Notes under the pieces: generated by a model
What the model was told of the DNA's origin: nothing
What the model saw: the letters and a program-made list of their open reading frames with translations, nothing else
Databases searched by the model: none
Position numbers and translations under genes: made by a program
Part shown: positions 8,201 to 42,250 of the stretch, piece after piece
How positions within the stretch are numbered: position 1 is the stretch's first letter
Layout of the letters: every line of letters starts with the position of its first letter
Origin: Halorientalis persicus
Lineage (GTDB): Archaea > Halobacteriota > Halobacteria > Halobacteriales > Haloarculaceae
Reading direction: 5' to 3'
DNA length: 64,000 nucleotides
Assembly: GCF_900110215.1 (NCBI RefSeq)
Contig: NZ_FOCX01000004.1
Coordinates: forward strand, 1 to 64,000

Positions 8201-10980
8201 GACTCGACGATCCGGAACCCGACGAGTTCGGGGTCGAGTACACGGAACTCGACGAGACCGTCCGCGTCCAGTCACTCGACGACGACGGCAACTGGGTACG
8301 CAAACGCGTCGAAGCCGTCTCGAAACACCCCGCACCCGATCATCTGGTCGAGATCGAAACCCAGACCGGACGGTCGATCACCGTCACGCCGGACCACGAG
8401 ATGGTCCGATGGACGGGCGGCATCGAGTCCGTTCGCGCGCACGAACTCGAACCCGGAGACGCGATTCCGGTGGACGAGCACGATCAGCAAAAACCAGCGA
8501 CCGCGACGCCCCAGGCGGTCGGTGACGGCGGCACGAACGTTGAAATAGTAGACCGGGTCCAGTTCCGCGCGTCCGATGTCGAACACACGTATTGCCTCAC
8601 GGTCGCGGAGACGAACCGGGTCGTCGCGAACGGCATCCTCACCGGCCAGTGTGACGGCGACGAGGACTGTGTGATGCTCCTGCTCGACGGCCTCCTGAAT
8701 TTCAGCAAGAAGTACCTGCCCGACAAGCGTGGCGGGAGCGTCGCCGAGGACTCCCGACTCGTCGCCGTCGACCCCGACGACGACGTCCGGTTCCTGACCT
8801 TCGAGGAGTTCTGGAACGAACTCGAATCGCCGCTTGAGGTCGACGGGAAGTTCCGCAAGCGGACCTGCTACGCCGAGGGCTGGCGGACCTACGCGTTCGA
8901 CGAGAACCACGAGGCGACCCTGCAACCCATCGAGAAAGCGATCAGATACCAGGCGGACGAGAACGAGTCGCTGGTCGAGATCGAGACGCAGTTCGGTCGA
9001 TCACTGGAGATCACCGACCACCACAGCCTGTTCCGGTACGACGACGGAATCGAGGAGGTAGCCGGTGGGGACCTCGAAGAAGGGGACCTCGTCGTCGCGC
9101 CCCGCGAATTCGATGTCGAGGCGCAGCGTACAACCATCGACGTAGCCGAATGCGTCGACGAGCCGTACGTCGCCATCGACGACCACGTCGAAGACCTCCT
9201 CCGGACAGTCTGGGAATCGGGAGAGACTGGAAGTGACGAACGGGAGGCGTTTCTCACCGGTCTCAACCACCGGCCACCCGCTGGTGGATTGGATTACCGA
9301 CTCTCCAAGGAGAAGATCCCCCTCGAGGCCTTGAAGACCATTCTAGAGGCTGGCGGGTTCGAACTACCGGAGACGACGGAAATCGGTCGACCAGGATCTT
9401 CGGACGGTATCTCTCGAACTGTCGCGGTCGACGGAGACTTCGCGTGGTTGCTCGGCCTGTTCGTCGCTGAAGGATCCACTTCGAGCGTCTGTCCCACGAT
9501 CCACAACGCCGACGAGAGTCTCATCGACCGTGCGGCGGGGATTATCGAGGACACGCTCGGACACGAACCCGGCAGACGGTGGTCGAACCGGGCGTACGAA
9601 CTCCGGTTCCCGACCGTATTCCGCGAAGTACTGTACGACCTCGGGTTCGAGGACGTCGATTCCTACGACTCTAGCGAGAAGGTCGTGCCCGACTGTATTC
9701 TCCACGCACCGCGCGAAGTCGTCCTCTCGTTCCTTCGTGGGTTCATCGCCGGCGATGGCAGTGACAGCACGGACGAGAACGTAACGACGGTCGGCTTCCA
9801 CACCACGAGCGACGATGTGAAGGACGGCATCGTGTTCCTCCTGCACCGCCTCGGACTCGTCGCCAACATCTCCGAACGTACGAATCGTGAGGGCAACCGC
9901 CAGGACATCTACACGATCACCGTCTCGGGCGGTGCGACCGACAATCCACTCCATCGGATTCTCGACGGTGAGGAACCCTACTATCCGAAGAGTCTGGTCG
10001 TCTCGATTCCTGATGCCCTGATGGAGGTTCGGGAGATGGACATCGAGGGGATCAAACAACTGATCCCGAAGTACCTCAAGCGCCGGGACAACATCTCACT
10101 CGAAAAACTCCGCGAGATCGTCCGCGAACTCGAATCGCGGGATCTCCCCACCGATGCAGCGGAGCGACTCGACGATCTGCGCCCACTCGTCGACGGCGAT
10201 CTCTCGTACCTGCGGGTCGAAAACGTCGACCGCGTCGATTACGACGGCTATCTCTACGATCTACAGGTGGGTGGTGAGCCGATCTTCACCGCCAACTGGC
10301 TGTACGCCCACAACTCCATGGACGCACCTCTCGTCATGTCCTCCCGGATCGACCCCACCGAGATCGACGACGAGGCCCACAACATGGACGTGATGGACCA
10401 GTACCCCCGCGAATTCTACGAGGCCACCCGCGAGATGGCCGACCCCGAGGACGTCGAGGACATCATGACCATCGCCGAGGAGAACCTGGGGACCGACCGC
10501 GAGTACACCGACTTCCGGCACACCCACGACACCAGTAACATCGCGCTCGGGCCGGATCTGTCGGCGTACAAGACGCTGGACGACATGATGAAGAAGATGA
10601 ACGCCCAGCTGGAGCTCTCCCGGAAACTCCGGGCCGTCGACGAGACCGACGTGGCCGAGCGGGTCATCGAGTACCACTTCCTGCCCGACATCATCGGGAA
10701 CCTCAGAGCCTTCTCCCAGCAGGAGACCCGCTGTCTAGACTGTGGCGAGAAGTACCGGCGCGTCCCGCTGACCGGCGACTGCCGGAACTGCGGTGGCGAC
10801 ATGACCCTCACCGTCCACCACGGGTCGGTCAACAAGTACATCGACACGGCCCTGGAAGTCGCCGAGGAGTACGGGACTCGCGAGTACACCACCCAGCGCC
10901 TGGAGATCCTGAAAAAGTCCATCAAGCGCATCTTCGAGAACGACAACAACAAACAGAGCGGGATTGGCGACTTCATGTAA
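5260..10980 (+). CDS. polC: DNA polymerase D large subunit DP2 with two inteins
   Basis: A 1906-codon precursor of the catalytic subunit of the archaeal replicative polymerase PolD. Removing the two inteins leaves about 1202 residues, a normal DP2 length. Seen in order: an acidic linker (about residues 285-325), a zinc-finger region with CTDC, CPDC, CRDC and CHRC pairs (about 700-750), the active-site motif CDGDEDC (residues 1131-1137), VMSSRIDP, and a C-terminal zinc finger CLDC...CRNC. The last nine residues, KQSGIGDFM, contain a PCNA-binding pattern QxxIxxF. Known PolD structures place catalytic Asp residues in the DGD motif, and the first intein is inserted immediately in front of it. The gene is translationally coupled to the PPC gene. 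The partner subunit DP1 is not in the window. Confidence 0.97.
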   Translation: MREADERYFDRLEADLDDAFEVATAARERGGDPTKDVEIPTARDMADRVENILGIDGVAERVRELEGEMSREEAALELVEDFVDGSVGDYDTDAGKIEGAVRTAVALLTEGVVAAPIEGIDRVEVLENDDGTEFVNVYYAGPIRSAGGTAQALSVLVADYARSLLGMDEFKARKDEIGRYAEEVDLYDQETGLQYSPKEKESKFIAEHMPIMLDGEATGDDEVSGYRDLERIDTNSARGGMCLVFAEGIALKAPKIQRYTRNLEEVEWPWLQDLIDGTIGKDDGSETDQGETSDDASGEAASDADDADDTAEDEADEPAGPPRVDPSEKFLRDLIAGRPVFTHPSEPGGFRLRYGRSRNHGFATAGVHPATMHLVDDFLATGTQIKTERPGKAAGVVPVDTIEGPTVRLANGDVRRIDDPAEALEVRNGVEAILDLGEYLVNYGEFVENNHPLAPASYTVEWWEQDFAASDADVQAMRDSVRVDLDDPSAEEAIEWATEYDAPLHPKYTYCWHDVSVAEFERLTAAVADAEVAKTDGAVLSDDGAGDPAEGDLIVPRPEAEDADVAGVLESLLVEHRQYEDRLVVPDWKPLVLSLGLTERLEREWAPADLPTAAREYADGDNAIRAVNAVAPFEIRERAPTRIGNRMGRPEKSESRELSPAVHTLFPIGEAGGSQRDVSKAADAGDAVEGTQGEIEVQVGRRECTDCGTRTYEARCPDCNGVTDAVYVCRDCDIEVEPDESGRAECHRCESLASPVQTETISVREQFRDALDEVGLRENAFDIVKGVKGLSSKTKTPEPIEKGILRAKHGVSAFKDGTVRYDMTDLPVTAVRPAELDVTADQFRELGYEEDMQGEPLRHDDQLVELKVQDIVLSDGAAEHMLKTADFVDDLLESYYGLDPFYDVDDRQELVGELVFGMAPHTSAATVGRIIGFTSAAVGYAHPYFHAAKRRNCFHPDTEIRYEDDRERLREVPIETFVERRLDDPEPDEFGVEYTELDETVRVQSLDDDGNWVRKRVEAVSKHPAPDHLVEIETQTGRSITVTPDHEMVRWTGGIESVRAHELEPGDAIPVDEHDQQKPATATPQAVGDGGTNVEIVDRVQFRASDVEHTYCLTVAETNRVVANGILTGQCDGDEDCVMLLLDGLLNFSKKYLPDKRGGSVAEDSRLVAVDPDDDVRFLTFEEFWNELESPLEVDGKFRKRTCYAEGWRTYAFDENHEATLQPIEKAIRYQADENESLVEIETQFGRSLEITDHHSLFRYDDGIEEVAGGDLEEGDLVVAPREFDVEAQRTTIDVAECVDEPYVAIDDHVEDLLRTVWESGETGSDEREAFLTGLNHRPPAGGLDYRLSKEKIPLEALKTILEAGGFELPETTEIGRPGSSDGISRTVAVDGDFAWLLGLFVAEGSTSSVCPTIHNADESLIDRAAGIIEDTLGHEPGRRWSNRAYELRFPTVFREVLYDLGFEDVDSYDSSEKVVPDCILHAPREVVLSFLRGFIAGDGSDSTDENVTTVGFHTTSDDVKDGIVFLLHRLGLVANISERTNREGNRQDIYTITVSGGATDNPLHRILDGEEPYYPKSLVVSIPDALMEVREMDIEGIKQLIPKYLKRRDNISLEKLREIVRELESRDLPTDAAERLDDLRPLVDGDLSYLRVENVDRVDYDGYLYDLQVGGEPIFTANWLYAHNSMDAPLVMSSRIDPTEIDDEAHNMDVMDQYPREFYEATREMADPEDVEDIMTIAEENLGTDREYTDFRHTHDTSNIALGPDLSAYKTLDDMMKKMNAQLELSRKLRAVDETDVAERVIEYHFLPDIIGNLRAFSQQETRCLDCGEKYRRVPLTGDCRNCGGDMTLTVHHGSVNKYIDTALEVAEEYGTREYTTQRLEILKKSIKRIFENDNNKQSGIGDFM
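8116..8649 (+). other. Intein 1 of polC (mini-intein, 178 residues, C-terminal Gln)
   Basis: It occupies precursor residues 953-1130. It begins with Cys (CFHPDTEIRYEDD) after RRN and ends VVANGILTGQ before the extein Cys of CDGDED. Block B is seen as TVTPDHEMV, and the C-terminal block as YCLTVAETNRVVANG. There is no LAGLIDADG endonuclease between them, so this is a mini-intein. The last residue is Gln, not the usual Asn. The DP2 intein of Pyrococcus abyssi at this site is known to splice with Gln. The host protein has no intact DGD active site until it is removed. Confidence 0.93.
8737..10314 (+). other. Intein 2 of polC (526 residues, LAGLIDADG homing endonuclease)
   Basis: It occupies precursor residues 1160-1685, from SVAEDSRLVAVD after KRGG to LYAHN before SMDAPLV. 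Block B is seen as LEITDHHSLFR. Two dodecapeptide motifs, WLLGLFVAEGS and FLRGFIAGDGS, mark an endonuclease of the LAGLIDADG type, each with an acidic residue. The splice junctions are Ser at position 1, His-Asn at the end, and Ser as the first C-extein residue. Codon choice is visibly less G+C-rich than in the exteins, consistent with horizontal entry. Confidence 0.95.
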
Positions 10981-10987
10981 GACCACC

Positions 10988-11028
10988 TTTTTGGCGAGGG
11001 GGTCGCCCTGCGACCCCCTCGCCAAAAA
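10988..11028 (+). terminator. Perfect 19-bp hairpin after polC
   Basis: The left arm 10988-11006 (TTTTTGGCGAGGGGGTCGC) pairs perfectly with 11010-11028 around a three-base loop. It lies eight bases after the polC stop and starts with a T-tract, so it probably ends that transcript. The arms resemble copies at 44.65 kb and 58.1 kb (see findings). Confidence 0.7.
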
Positions 11029-11042
11029 CGTGGGCGAAAAAG

Positions 11043-33029: not shown

Positions 33030-33168
33030 TGCCCCCACCTATCATCCACTGTTTACGCCATCACGTATAATTATTCGGCAACTACCGCGCAAAAAACGAT
33101 AGTTAACACCGCGCTGGCCGCCGGATGGCGGCAGGTTATTACGCTTGCCGGCAGTAGCCGTGTATCGA
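33030..33168. promoter_or_regulatory. AT-rich divergent promoter region of the zinc-ribbon and PiT genes
   Basis: This spacer holds the strongest AT-rich blocks in its neighbourhood: ACGTATAATTATTCGG (33063-33078) and CGCAAAAAACGATAGTTAAC (33089-33108). A GCCGG...CCGGC arrangement surrounds GGTTATTACG further right (about 33118-33151). It could bind a regulator of phosphate uptake, but no known operator is recognised. Confidence 0.35.
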
Positions 33169-34356
33169 ATGGTTGCTGGAGGCACGCTCGCGACGTTTCT
33201 GGTCGCTGGAGCGGCGAGTCTGTTCATGGCGTGGGCCATCGGCGCGGGCTCGTCGGGGTCGACGCCGTTCGCCCCGGCGGTCGGTGCCAACGCCATCTCG
33301 GTCATGCGCGCCGGCTTCATCGTCGGACTGCTCGGTCTGGGGGGGGCCGTCCTCCAGGGCGCGAACGTCACCGAGGCAGTCGGTCGGGAACTCATCCTGA
33401 ACGTCGCGATCACGCCGCCCGCGGCCGTCGTCGCGCTCATCACCGCGGCGGTGCTGGTCGCCATCGGCGTGTTCGCCGGCTACCCCATCGCCACCGCCTT
33501 CACCGTCACCGGCGCGGTCGTCGGCGTCGGGCTGGCGCTGGGCGGCGACCCCGCCTGGGCCAAGTACACCGAGATCGTCGCGCTGTGGGTCGCCGTCCCC
33601 TTCGTCGGCGGTGGTATCGCCTACGGCACCGCCAAGACGCTCCGGGACGAGCGCGTCCCCGAGTCCATCGCCGTCCCTCTGCTGGCCGGCGTCGTCGGCG
33701 CGATCCTCGCGAACGTCCGGTTCGTCGTCCTCGGCCCGGCCGGCGAGGCCGCCTCGCTCACCGACGTCGCCGCCACGTCCCTCTCCGAGTTCCCGTCGCT
33801 CGTCGTCTACGCTGGCGTCACCCTCGCGGCTGCGACACTCGTCGCCGTCGTCCTCTGGTGGGACCTCCGCGGGAACCCCGCGGCCGGCCAGCGCCACTTC
33901 CTGCTCGCGCTGGGCGGCCTGGTCGCGTTCTCGGCCGGTGGCAGTCAGGTGGGCCTGGCGCTCGGTCCCCTCCTGCCCCTGCTCGACCCGTTCGAGATCC
34001 CGCTCGTCGCGGTCCTGCTGGGCGGCGGGTTCGGCCTCCTGCTCGGTTCCTGGACCGGCGCACCGAGGATGATAAAGGCCCTCGCACAGGACTACTCGGC
34101 GCTGGGGCCGCGCCGCTCCATCGCCGCGCTCATCCCCTCCTTCGCCATCGCACAGACCGCCGTCTTCTTCGGCATCCCCGTCTCGTTCAACGAGATCATC
34201 GTCAGCGCCATCATCGGCAGCGGCTTCGCCGCCGGCGGCAGCGGAGTCAGCGGGAAGAAGATGGGCTACACCGTGCTGGCCTGGATCGGCTCGCTCGTTC
34301 TCGCCTTTACCCTGGGCTATGGCGTGTTCACCGCCGTCGACCTACTGCTGGCCTGA
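33169..34356 (+). CDS. PiT-family inorganic phosphate transporter (second copy)
   Basis: A 395-residue membrane protein, about ten segments, with the two PiT repeats: AIGAGSSGSTPFAPAVGANA near residue 25 and AFSAGGSQVGLALGPLLPLL near residue 265. The segment IAQTAVFFGIPVSFNEIIVS near the C-terminus recurs in a broken form 1.2 kb downstream. The start is taken as ATG 33169 because the first membrane segment begins there. It differs from the copy at 17.6 kb in its loops, so the two may differ in regulation or affinity. Confidence 0.87.
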   Translation: MVAGGTLATFLVAGAASLFMAWAIGAGSSGSTPFAPAVGANAISVMRAGFIVGLLGLGGAVLQGANVTEAVGRELILNVAITPPAAVVALITAAVLVAIGVFAGYPIATAFTVTGAVVGVGLALGGDPAWAKYTEIVALWVAVPFVGGGIAYGTAKTLRDERVPESIAVPLLAGVVGAILANVRFVVLGPAGEAASLTDVAATSLSEFPSLVVYAGVTLAAATLVAVVLWWDLRGNPAAGQRHFLLALGGLVAFSAGGSQVGLALGPLLPLLDPFEIPLVAVLLGGGFGLLLGSWTGAPRMIKALAQDYSALGPRRSIAALIPSFAIAQTAVFFGIPVSFNEIIVSAIIGSGFAAGGSGVSGKKMGYTVLAWIGSLVLAFTLGYGVFTAVDLLLA

Positions 34357-35320: not shown

Positions 35321-35431
35321 GTCGCCCCCTCACTCGCCGCGCTCATTCCCGCCTTCGCCATCGCTCAGACCGCCGTCTTCTTCGGCATCCCCGTCTCGTT
35401 CAACGAGATCGCCGTCTCGGCGGTCGTGTGA
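35321..35431 (+). pseudogene. Relic of a PiT transporter gene 3' region
   Basis: In the frame ending at TGA 35429-35431 the sequence reads SLAALIPAFAIAQTAVFFGI then PVSFNEIAVSAVV and stops. It matches the segment SIAALIPSFAIAQTAVFFGI then PVSFNEIIVSAII of the intact transporter 1.2 kb upstream, with long runs of identical DNA around the PVSFNEI codons. There is no start codon or membrane-protein context before it. It is a leftover of a second copy or of an older allele. Confidence 0.8.
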
Positions 35432-35456
35432 CGGCAGTGGCGCTCTCGGTGTCCCG

Positions 35457-40825: not shown

Positions 40826-40903
40826 CTATCGCTCGTCGACCGGGACGAACTCCTCGGTCGTGGTGCCGGTGTAGCGACCGCGCGGCCGGATCAGCCGATC
40901 GTA
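40826..40903 (-). pseudogene. Relic of a citrate synthase gene 3' end
   Basis: Reading from 40908 down to a TAG at 40828-40826, the minus strand gives YDRLIRPRGRYTGTTTEEF then VPVDER and stop. The intact citrate synthase just upstream ends YDDNRLIRPRGRYIGSTDEE then FVPVEER. The relic is therefore the last 25 or so codons of a diverged second citrate synthase. Nothing recognisable precedes it. Confidence 0.85.
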
Positions 40904-41089
40904 CCACGACCTTTTTCCTTCGTCGGGTATCCTCGCTCGCTTCGCTCGCTGTGGTACCGCTCCTCGCAAAAAGCTCGGGCAAAAAAGGACCGCTCACTCA
41001 CTGCCTCGCGGGCGTCGCCCGCTTGGCTCTCTGGGGTGCGCCCTCCGGTCACACCTCGCACCGTTCGTGACGGGTGCTGCGCTCGTGCT
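40904..41089. other. Non-coding spacer between citrate synthase and its relic
   Basis: No gene is evident. It contains CGACCTTTTTCCTTCG, a CGCTCGCTTCGCTCGC palindromic tract within an imperfect GGTAYC...GGTACC arrangement (about 40929-40961), CAAAAAGCTCGGGCAAAAAA, and GCGGGCGTCGCCCGC (about 41007-41021). These are typical haloarchaeal terminator-like elements and would serve the citrate synthase transcript. Confidence 0.5.
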
Positions 41090-42226
41090 CTACCGCTCCT
41101 CGACCGGCACGAACTCCTCGTCGGTCGAGCCGATGTAGCGACCGCGCGGGCGGATCAGCCGGTTGTCGTCGTACTGTTCGAGGACGTGCGCGATCCAGCC
41201 GCCGACGCGGCTCATCGCGAAGATGGGCGTGAAGATGTCGACCGGGATGCCCATCTGGTAGTACGTCGACGCCGAGTAGAAGTCGACGTTCGGGGCGAGT
41301 CCTTTTTCGTCTTTCATCCAGTCCTCGATCGAGGTGGAGTACTCGAACCACTTCAGCGAGCCAGCGGCCTCGCCGAGGGCCTTGGACTTGTCCGAGAGGA
41401 TGCGGGCCCGGGGGTCCTTGACGTTGTAGACACGGTGGCCGAAGCCAGGGACGCGCTCGCCGGCTTCGAGCTTGTCTTTGGCCCACTCGACCGGCTCCTT
41501 GCCGGACTCGTCGAGTTCGAGCAGGGCCTCCATGACGTCCTGGTTCGCGCCGCCGTGGAGCGAGCCAGAGAGCGCGCCGATCCCGCCGGGGATCGCAGAG
41601 TGCAGGTCCGCGAGCGTCGAGGAGATTACCATCGAAGAGAACGTCGAGGCGTTCAGTCCGTGGTCGACGTGGAGCACGAGCGCCATGTCGAACGTCTCGG
41701 CGAGCACCTCGTCGGGCTCCTCGCCGTTGAGCATATACAGGAAGTTCTCGGCGTGGGTGAGGTCCTCGCGGGGTTCGACGGGCTCCTCGCCGTCGCGGAT
41801 CCGGGTGAACGCCGCGATGATCGTCGGAATCTTCGCGGTGATGCGCCGCCCCTTTCGGAGGTTTGCCTCCCGATCCTGGGGATCGGCTTCGGCGTCGGGA
41901 TCGTGTGCCGAGAGGCTGGAGACGGCCGTCCGCAGCGCGGCCATCGGGTTCTCGTCGGCCTCGGCCAGCGAGCGCACCAGGTCGAGCACGTCGTCGTGCA
42001 GTTCCCGCTCGGCGCTCATCGCCTCGGTAAACTCGGCGAGTTCCTCGCTGTTCGGGAGGTGGCCGTGCCACAGCAGGTACAGCACTTCCTCGTAGCTCGC
42101 GTCACGCGCCAGATCGTCGATCGAGTAGCCCCGGTAGATGAGTTCGCCGGCATCGCCGTCGATGTAACTCAGTTCCGACTCGGCGACCAGGACACCCTCA
42201 AGCCCTTTCTTGAGCTCGTCGGACAT
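41090..42226 (-). CDS. citZ: Citrate synthase
   Basis: A 378-residue enzyme condensing acetyl-CoA and oxaloacetate. Catalytic regions are visible: VDHGLNASTFSSMV (first His), GFGHRVYNVKDPRA (second His) and NVDFYSASTYY (Asp). The start MSDELKKGLEGVLVAESELS at 42226 is the usual N-terminus, and the longer upstream reading is non-coding. Length is typical of the archaeal short type. A 3' relic of a second copy lies about 190 bases past its stop. Confidence 0.95.
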   Translation of the reverse strand: MSDELKKGLEGVLVAESELSYIDGDAGELIYRGYSIDDLARDASYEEVLYLLWHGHLPNSEELAEFTEAMSAERELHDDVLDLVRSLAEADENPMAALRTAVSSLSAHDPDAEADPQDREANLRKGRRITAKIPTIIAAFTRIRDGEEPVEPREDLTHAENFLYMLNGEEPDEVLAETFDMALVLHVDHGLNASTFSSMVISSTLADLHSAIPGGIGALSGSLHGGANQDVMEALLELDESGKEPVEWAKDKLEAGERVPGFGHRVYNVKDPRARILSDKSKALGEAAGSLKWFEYSTSIEDWMKDEKGLAPNVDFYSASTYYQMGIPVDIFTPIFAMSRVGGWIAHVLEQYDDNRLIRPRGRYIGSTDEEFVPVEER

Positions 42227-42250
42227 ACGTCGGCGTTCTCTACCTGCCGG

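Follow-up and report, generated by a model that had tools for sequence, protein, structure and literature searches.

Integrative elements use the 3' ends of protein-coding genes, such as icd in E. coli, where the original gene end is pushed downstream and a duplicate takes over in its place. A similar outcome is found in haloarchaea where a short hairpin element, here called E, lies between a gene and a copy of the 3' end of that gene, with the difference that E has no integrase, a tiny payload and many unrelated targets. The insertion sequences IS1634 and IS1549 are flanked by direct repeats of 8-514 bp, the mechanism behind which is not known, and the IS1634 family is found preferentially among Euryarchaeota (PMC2266710). 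Elements of this type come to lie between long target direct repeats of variable length (PMC2266710), an arrangement that E would share, but E has neither a transposase nor a defined left end and its repeats nearly always hold a stop codon. The resemblance of E to IS1634, which lies only in the long variable repeats, is an analogy and not membership of the family. Small mobile repeats of haloarchaea, among them MITEs and PATEs, are, like E, short, non-coding, hairpin-rich and intergenic and present in several copies per genome (PMC3119063), whereas gene-end copies are not described for them in the available part of that account. For E, no pair of termini enclosed by a short target duplication could be made out. 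Archaeal T-tract terminators, of which a T5C tract in Haloferax volcanii stops 95% of transcripts (PMC7237163), resemble E in that their T-tracts stand behind stop codons, often together with a hairpin. E is often located between convergent gene ends. Unlike ordinary archaeal terminators, E is accompanied by a copy of the gene 3' end and has conserved non-structural bases. Searches of open-access papers turned up no account of gene-end copies tied to elements of this kind.

The window, which denotes the whole stretch of 64,000 nucleotides that was analysed, lies on contig G000:C62 in a genome of the haloarchaeon Halorientalis. It encodes an intact citrate synthase of 379 amino acids, citZ, at 41093..42229 on the minus strand (PF00285, E-value 1.9e-132; a longer ORF reaches 42469) with its stop codon at 41090-41092 on the same strand, and this is the one full-length copy in the genome, with its nearest kin in H. 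regularis (98%). The last 72 nt of the gene, from RLIRPR to the stop, form the gene-proximal copy of a direct repeat (41090..41161, minus strand) that serves as the functional 3' end of citZ. The downstream copy is the relic (40826..40897, minus strand), which is about 90% identical over the 72 nt including its stop codon TAG and lies 264 nt from the first copy, this distance being the repeat unit; the minus-strand reading at 40826-40903 is YDRLIRPRGRYTGTTTEEFVPVDER followed by a stop. A whole-genome search with citZ recovered the relic independently at G000:C62:40829-40900 (E-value 6e-5, 79% identity over 24 amino acids, open frame), which together with the repeat bears out the earlier note in its claim of a genuine 3'-end relic near intact citZ. 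Chance is excluded, as 0 of 666 gene ends reached an equal match score in a reverse-complement control. Although the relic differs from intact citZ at 5 of 24 residues, its closest source among the citZ ends compared is the citZ of the window itself (score 95, followed by H. regularis with 85) and it contains RPRGRY, which is typical of Halorientalis citZ, so that the diverged homologue proposed in the note as the source is not what the comparison points to. In citZ searches the relic was absent from all seven of the other Halorientalis genomes.

The spacer between the two copies (40898..41089, minus strand) contains E, in the same architecture as the spacers of other relic-bearing genomes. 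E, placed between the gene and the copy, combines the T-tract pair TTTTT-8nt-TTTTT with a hairpin that varies and the right end AAAAAGGTGG. The copy mostly begins 0-10 nt past AAAAAGGTGG and usually retains its stop codon. In the window the left motif TTTTTTGCCCGAGCTTTTT, a terminator-like double T-tract that follows the pattern TTTTTSSYCSABVTTTTT, is at 40968..40986 and the right end AAAAAGGTCGTGG (consensus AAAAAGGTGG), which adjoins the relic at a junction that is constant in most cases, at 40904..40916, both on the minus strand. This E resembles the one that H. regularis has after its citZ (GCCCGAGC..GGTCGT versus GCTCGAGC..GGTCGT). Motif and locus reading identify a second E in the window (10983..11041, minus strand) that has no gene-end copy and whose right end abuts the stop codon of a convergent gene. 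Certain families have T-tracts that are shorter by one base, with variable bases. Across loci the right end (AAAAAGGTGG) is constant and the left border varies, and a defined left end was not found among the E loci compared; where E lies between convergent genes or beside the end of a tRNA, its right end stands directly at the 3' end of the neighbour. An alignment of 33 E sequences has conserved ends and variable stems, and covariation gives little support either way because the outer pairs are invariant. With a T-tract behind a stop codon and a hairpin, E has the sequence make-up of a terminator and probably works as one in both directions, since T-tracts terminate transcription in Haloferax volcanii (PMC7237163). 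The predicted fold of the window E was no better than that of shuffled sequences (z -0.81), and no Rfam covariance model reached its gathering threshold in seven E loci.

The C-terminus of citZ was sought in 146 genomes from the family and 392 from the order, and the DNA of the matches was then read. Near-full copies of the citZ 3' end directly behind citZ were found in 22 haloarchaeal genomes from five families and about 11 genera, always on the strand of the gene, with a repeat unit of about 170-285 nt and a start that is nearly always (D)RLIRPR. Shorter copies with a later start occur in Halarchaeum (L012) and Haloarchaeobius (L006/L182), decayed ones at loci L024, L049 and L063, and two copies in a row in G031, while G256 has a decayed second copy. 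Among citZ loci fetched by similarity alone, 9 of 80 have a copy. The breakpoint at RLIRPR is constant in most genera, which, on the sequences compared, suggests shared ancestry, transfer of genes or site preference and not random insertion. The copy matches the adjoining citZ best in nearly all species, and mostly with 90-100% identity. A separate second citrate synthase, which the note had taken the relic to be the remainder of, is therefore disfavoured as the source, and only its supposed 3' 72 nt are present in the window.

The spacer behind citZ is E in all cases except for genomes G075 and G077 (L156, L157; G075:C3, G077:C12), where a Doc/Fic-like gene and a small ORF, possibly a toxin-antitoxin pair, lie between citZ and a longer 3' copy of about 140 nt; other payloads can thus occupy the same type of duplication. 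The gene-proximal citZ copy in these two genomes has an altered C-terminus, DERER or DERGE. In G115 two contigs (C28 and C19; L160, L161) both end within near-identical copies of the citZ 3' end, and the repeat probably broke the assembly. A decayed citrate synthase pseudogene that keeps its N-terminus is located apart from the intact gene in G138 (L158, G138:C6, ~8305-8376), and no integrase was seen among the ORFs at this isolated citZ end or that of G096 (L159).

E is also associated with copies of many other gene ends. Six genomes have between 3 and 26 matches each to the motif TTTTTSSYCSABVTTTTT, with 26 in the Halorientalis genome of the window (G000), and the reversed pattern has 0 in all six; as E was found by pattern and in genomes chosen for their citZ relics, these counts are not an overall frequency of E. 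For genes other than citZ with an E at most 200 nt downstream, a copy of the gene's own last 100 nt was sought further on, genes being identified by a simple rule of composition, which overlooks membrane proteins, and copies judged by local alignment, by which decayed ones can be missed. A direct copy of the gene's own 3' end was present beyond E for 16 of 28 genes with E and for 1 of 604 without it (Fisher p 2e-23), and the sole gene in the latter class (L230) has its E just past the 200-nt limit. Of the E loci in the six genomes, 58 had a right end that could be recognised, and direct repeats between left and right flanks (score at least 40) were found at 21 of these, compared with 1.2% of 3296 mismatched flank pairs. 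The suspicion in the earlier note that a recurring process lies behind such relics is thereby substantiated. Many E are nonetheless without any duplication. Judged by the look of their proteins, the targets are taken to be argF, the genes for a TIGR00300-like enzyme, a SAM methyltransferase, Spt5, ETF alpha (etfA), HisH, glutaredoxin, methionine aminopeptidase and HMG-CoA synthase, and others. The duplicated gene ends are 30-120 bases long. Some targets recur between genera, namely argF (G000, G088), the methyltransferase (G041, G000) and the TIGR00300-like gene (G041 and G088), which has the identical breakpoint TFVPIL in both, a sharing that suggests common descent or a preferred site and not random insertion. 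A hotspot confined to citZ, which made up 12 of 13 matches in a first scan, was rejected because the loci scanned were citZ neighbourhoods and E loci elsewhere hit many genes. At locus L191 (G010:C1:787098-787333) three E follow each other at intervals of 109 nt, and every one has with it the end of one and the same gene, which encodes a protein of 165 amino acids.

The direction of the event can be read from six pairs in which one genome has the relic and its relative does not. In each pair the sequence that follows the gene in the relative matches the flank behind the copy (scores 259-430), and it scores only 43-63 against the spacer behind the gene, where shuffled sequences reach up to 73; the relatives have no E, and three additional pairs are too distant to tell. 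Because the natural flank follows the copy and the relatives lack E, the downstream copy is the one in its natural place and the 3' end together with E is the added unit: the insert stands between direct repeats of which the empty sites have just one. By extension from these six pairs in other species, the relic in the window is presumably followed by the natural downstream flank.

Within Halorientalis a copy of the argF end is present in G005 and G006, twice in G000 and in tandem with loss of the stop codon in G004; it is shortened in G001, where internal pieces are lost, and in G003, and there is none in G007, while argF of G002 is followed by an E-like stretch with no copy detected. The array behind argF of G004 (L259) consists of at least two identical units of E and the argF 3' end, and its stop codon is now CAG. 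The copy of the SAM methyltransferase end is found in G000, G001 and G005 and decayed in G004 (G002 is unreadable), and G003, G006 and G007 have neither copy nor E. From this spread of presence, tandem repetition, decay and absence the copies appear to be long-lived and unconstrained as coding sequence. The methyltransferase relics of G004 and G001 both read TVAQVPE, where the genes themselves read TVATVPE and TVAKVPE respectively, so a copy may preserve an older version of the gene end. The idea in the note of an old 3' end left behind holds to this extent, although not by way of gene replacement.

On balance it is somewhat probable that the relic is the natural 3' end of citZ, displaced when an insertion of E duplicated the adjoining target. 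It is proposed that the short hairpin element inserts at the end of a gene and duplicates the adjacent target, which for citZ would be the last 72 nt with the stop codon, upon which the upstream copy would complete the gene and the downstream copy would be left over. The gene would stay intact because the duplicated stretch includes the stop codon, and survivors would be located at 3' ends because insertions lacking a stop would break genes and be lost. The leftover copy may then decay, be homogenised with the gene by conversion, which would keep the two alike, or multiply in tandem with E. This presupposes that E is mobile and that insertion and duplication happen together, as they may for IS1634-type elements. 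It counts against insertion that no transposase is linked to E, that its left end is undefined, that the breakpoint is constant in citZ of most genera and shared by two genera in the TIGR00300-like gene, that many E have no duplication, that the window E resembles the one of H. regularis citZ and that the E loci were picked by pattern in genomes already known for citZ relics.

The main rival explanation holds that E is resident as a terminator and that stalling at its hairpins leads to the 3' end and E being copied again by slippage or template switching, followed by loss of the second E. Such tandem duplication accounts for the arrays of E and gene 3' ends (the three 109-nt units of L191, argF of G004, L221 and L204) and for the partial or decayed second E behind some downstream copies (L012, L044, L171), and the likeness of the window E to that of H. 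regularis citZ would also fit a local duplication of an older E. However, neighbouring E of one array may differ in type (L204, L221), and in the six empty-site pairs, where the sister is without E, the natural flank stands directly after the copy, which would require a precise loss of the second E time and again. This route is possible but on the whole unlikely.

A selected role for the copy as part of a conserved functional 3' structure, either a terminator or an RNA, would agree with its occurrence at the same place in five families and with the terminator-like character of E, given the efficiency of T5C in Haloferax volcanii (PMC7237163). The earlier note had named a relic conserved over many genera within such an element as the finding that would speak against its reading; the relic does occur in about 11 genera beside a terminator-like element, but it decays and can lose its stop codon and is therefore not a conserved functional part. 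Copies have lost the stop (L027, L174 and argF of G004) or internal pieces (argF of G001) or have decayed (L024, L049, L063), most relatives have no copy, no Rfam model matches in seven E loci and the window E has no better fold than shuffled sequences, which leaves this explanation improbable. Still less probable is site-specific integration, in which integrative elements would use gene 3' ends as att sites and, once reduced to E or to the Doc/Fic-like pair, leave the relics as attR scars. A payload between gene-end repeats with preservation of the gene, as with that pair in G075 and G077, is what integration would produce, but the flanks scanned hold no tyrosine-recombinase motif, a scan of viral contigs yielded no haloarchaeal virus carrying a citZ end and only a chance antisense match in an unrelated integrase gene, those of the listed plasmid matches that have an annotation are genes for citrate or methylcitrate synthase, and the targets are many unrelated genes. 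A diversity-generating retroelement was considered for the gene-end repeat and rejected, as the differences have no adenine bias.

The route envisaged in the earlier note, in which homologous recombination with a diverged citZ replaced the gene and left its old 3' end behind, is scarcely credible, since, against the 5 of 24 residues that differ in the window and the relics that hold states seen in genes of other species, most copies are 90-100% identical to the adjoining gene, the spacer is E, the same pattern and E linkage recur at many genes (16/28 versus 1/604), the comparison with empty sites identifies the 3' end and the element as an insertion, and the window citZ end is nearest to H. 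regularis, which is the nearest relative over the whole protein too. A second scar in the window, a fragment of PiT at 35331..35432 on the plus strand, had been likened to that of citZ. It lies about 1 kb behind intact PiT (33145-34356), from which it is separated by two ORFs, is about 90% identical by eye over about 85 nt and ends within the coding region. As no E is present near it in the window, the PiT scar is of a different kind from the citZ scar and is not part of the E system.

Tentatively, E may belong to a class of haloarchaeal mobile elements not described before. On insertion it would duplicate 30-120 nt or more of its target and so be able to occupy the 3' ends of essential genes while leaving them intact, and it would spread bidirectional terminators in the process. 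For annotation, gene ends of this kind should not be taken for pseudogenes of lost paralogues. The finding ties together intergenic hairpin repeats, transcription terminators and gene-end fragments in compact archaeal genomes. If E is mobile, it would offer a ready system for the study of long target duplications, for which a mechanism is lacking in IS1634-type elements, and would illustrate a way for an element to establish itself in housekeeping genes free of cost.
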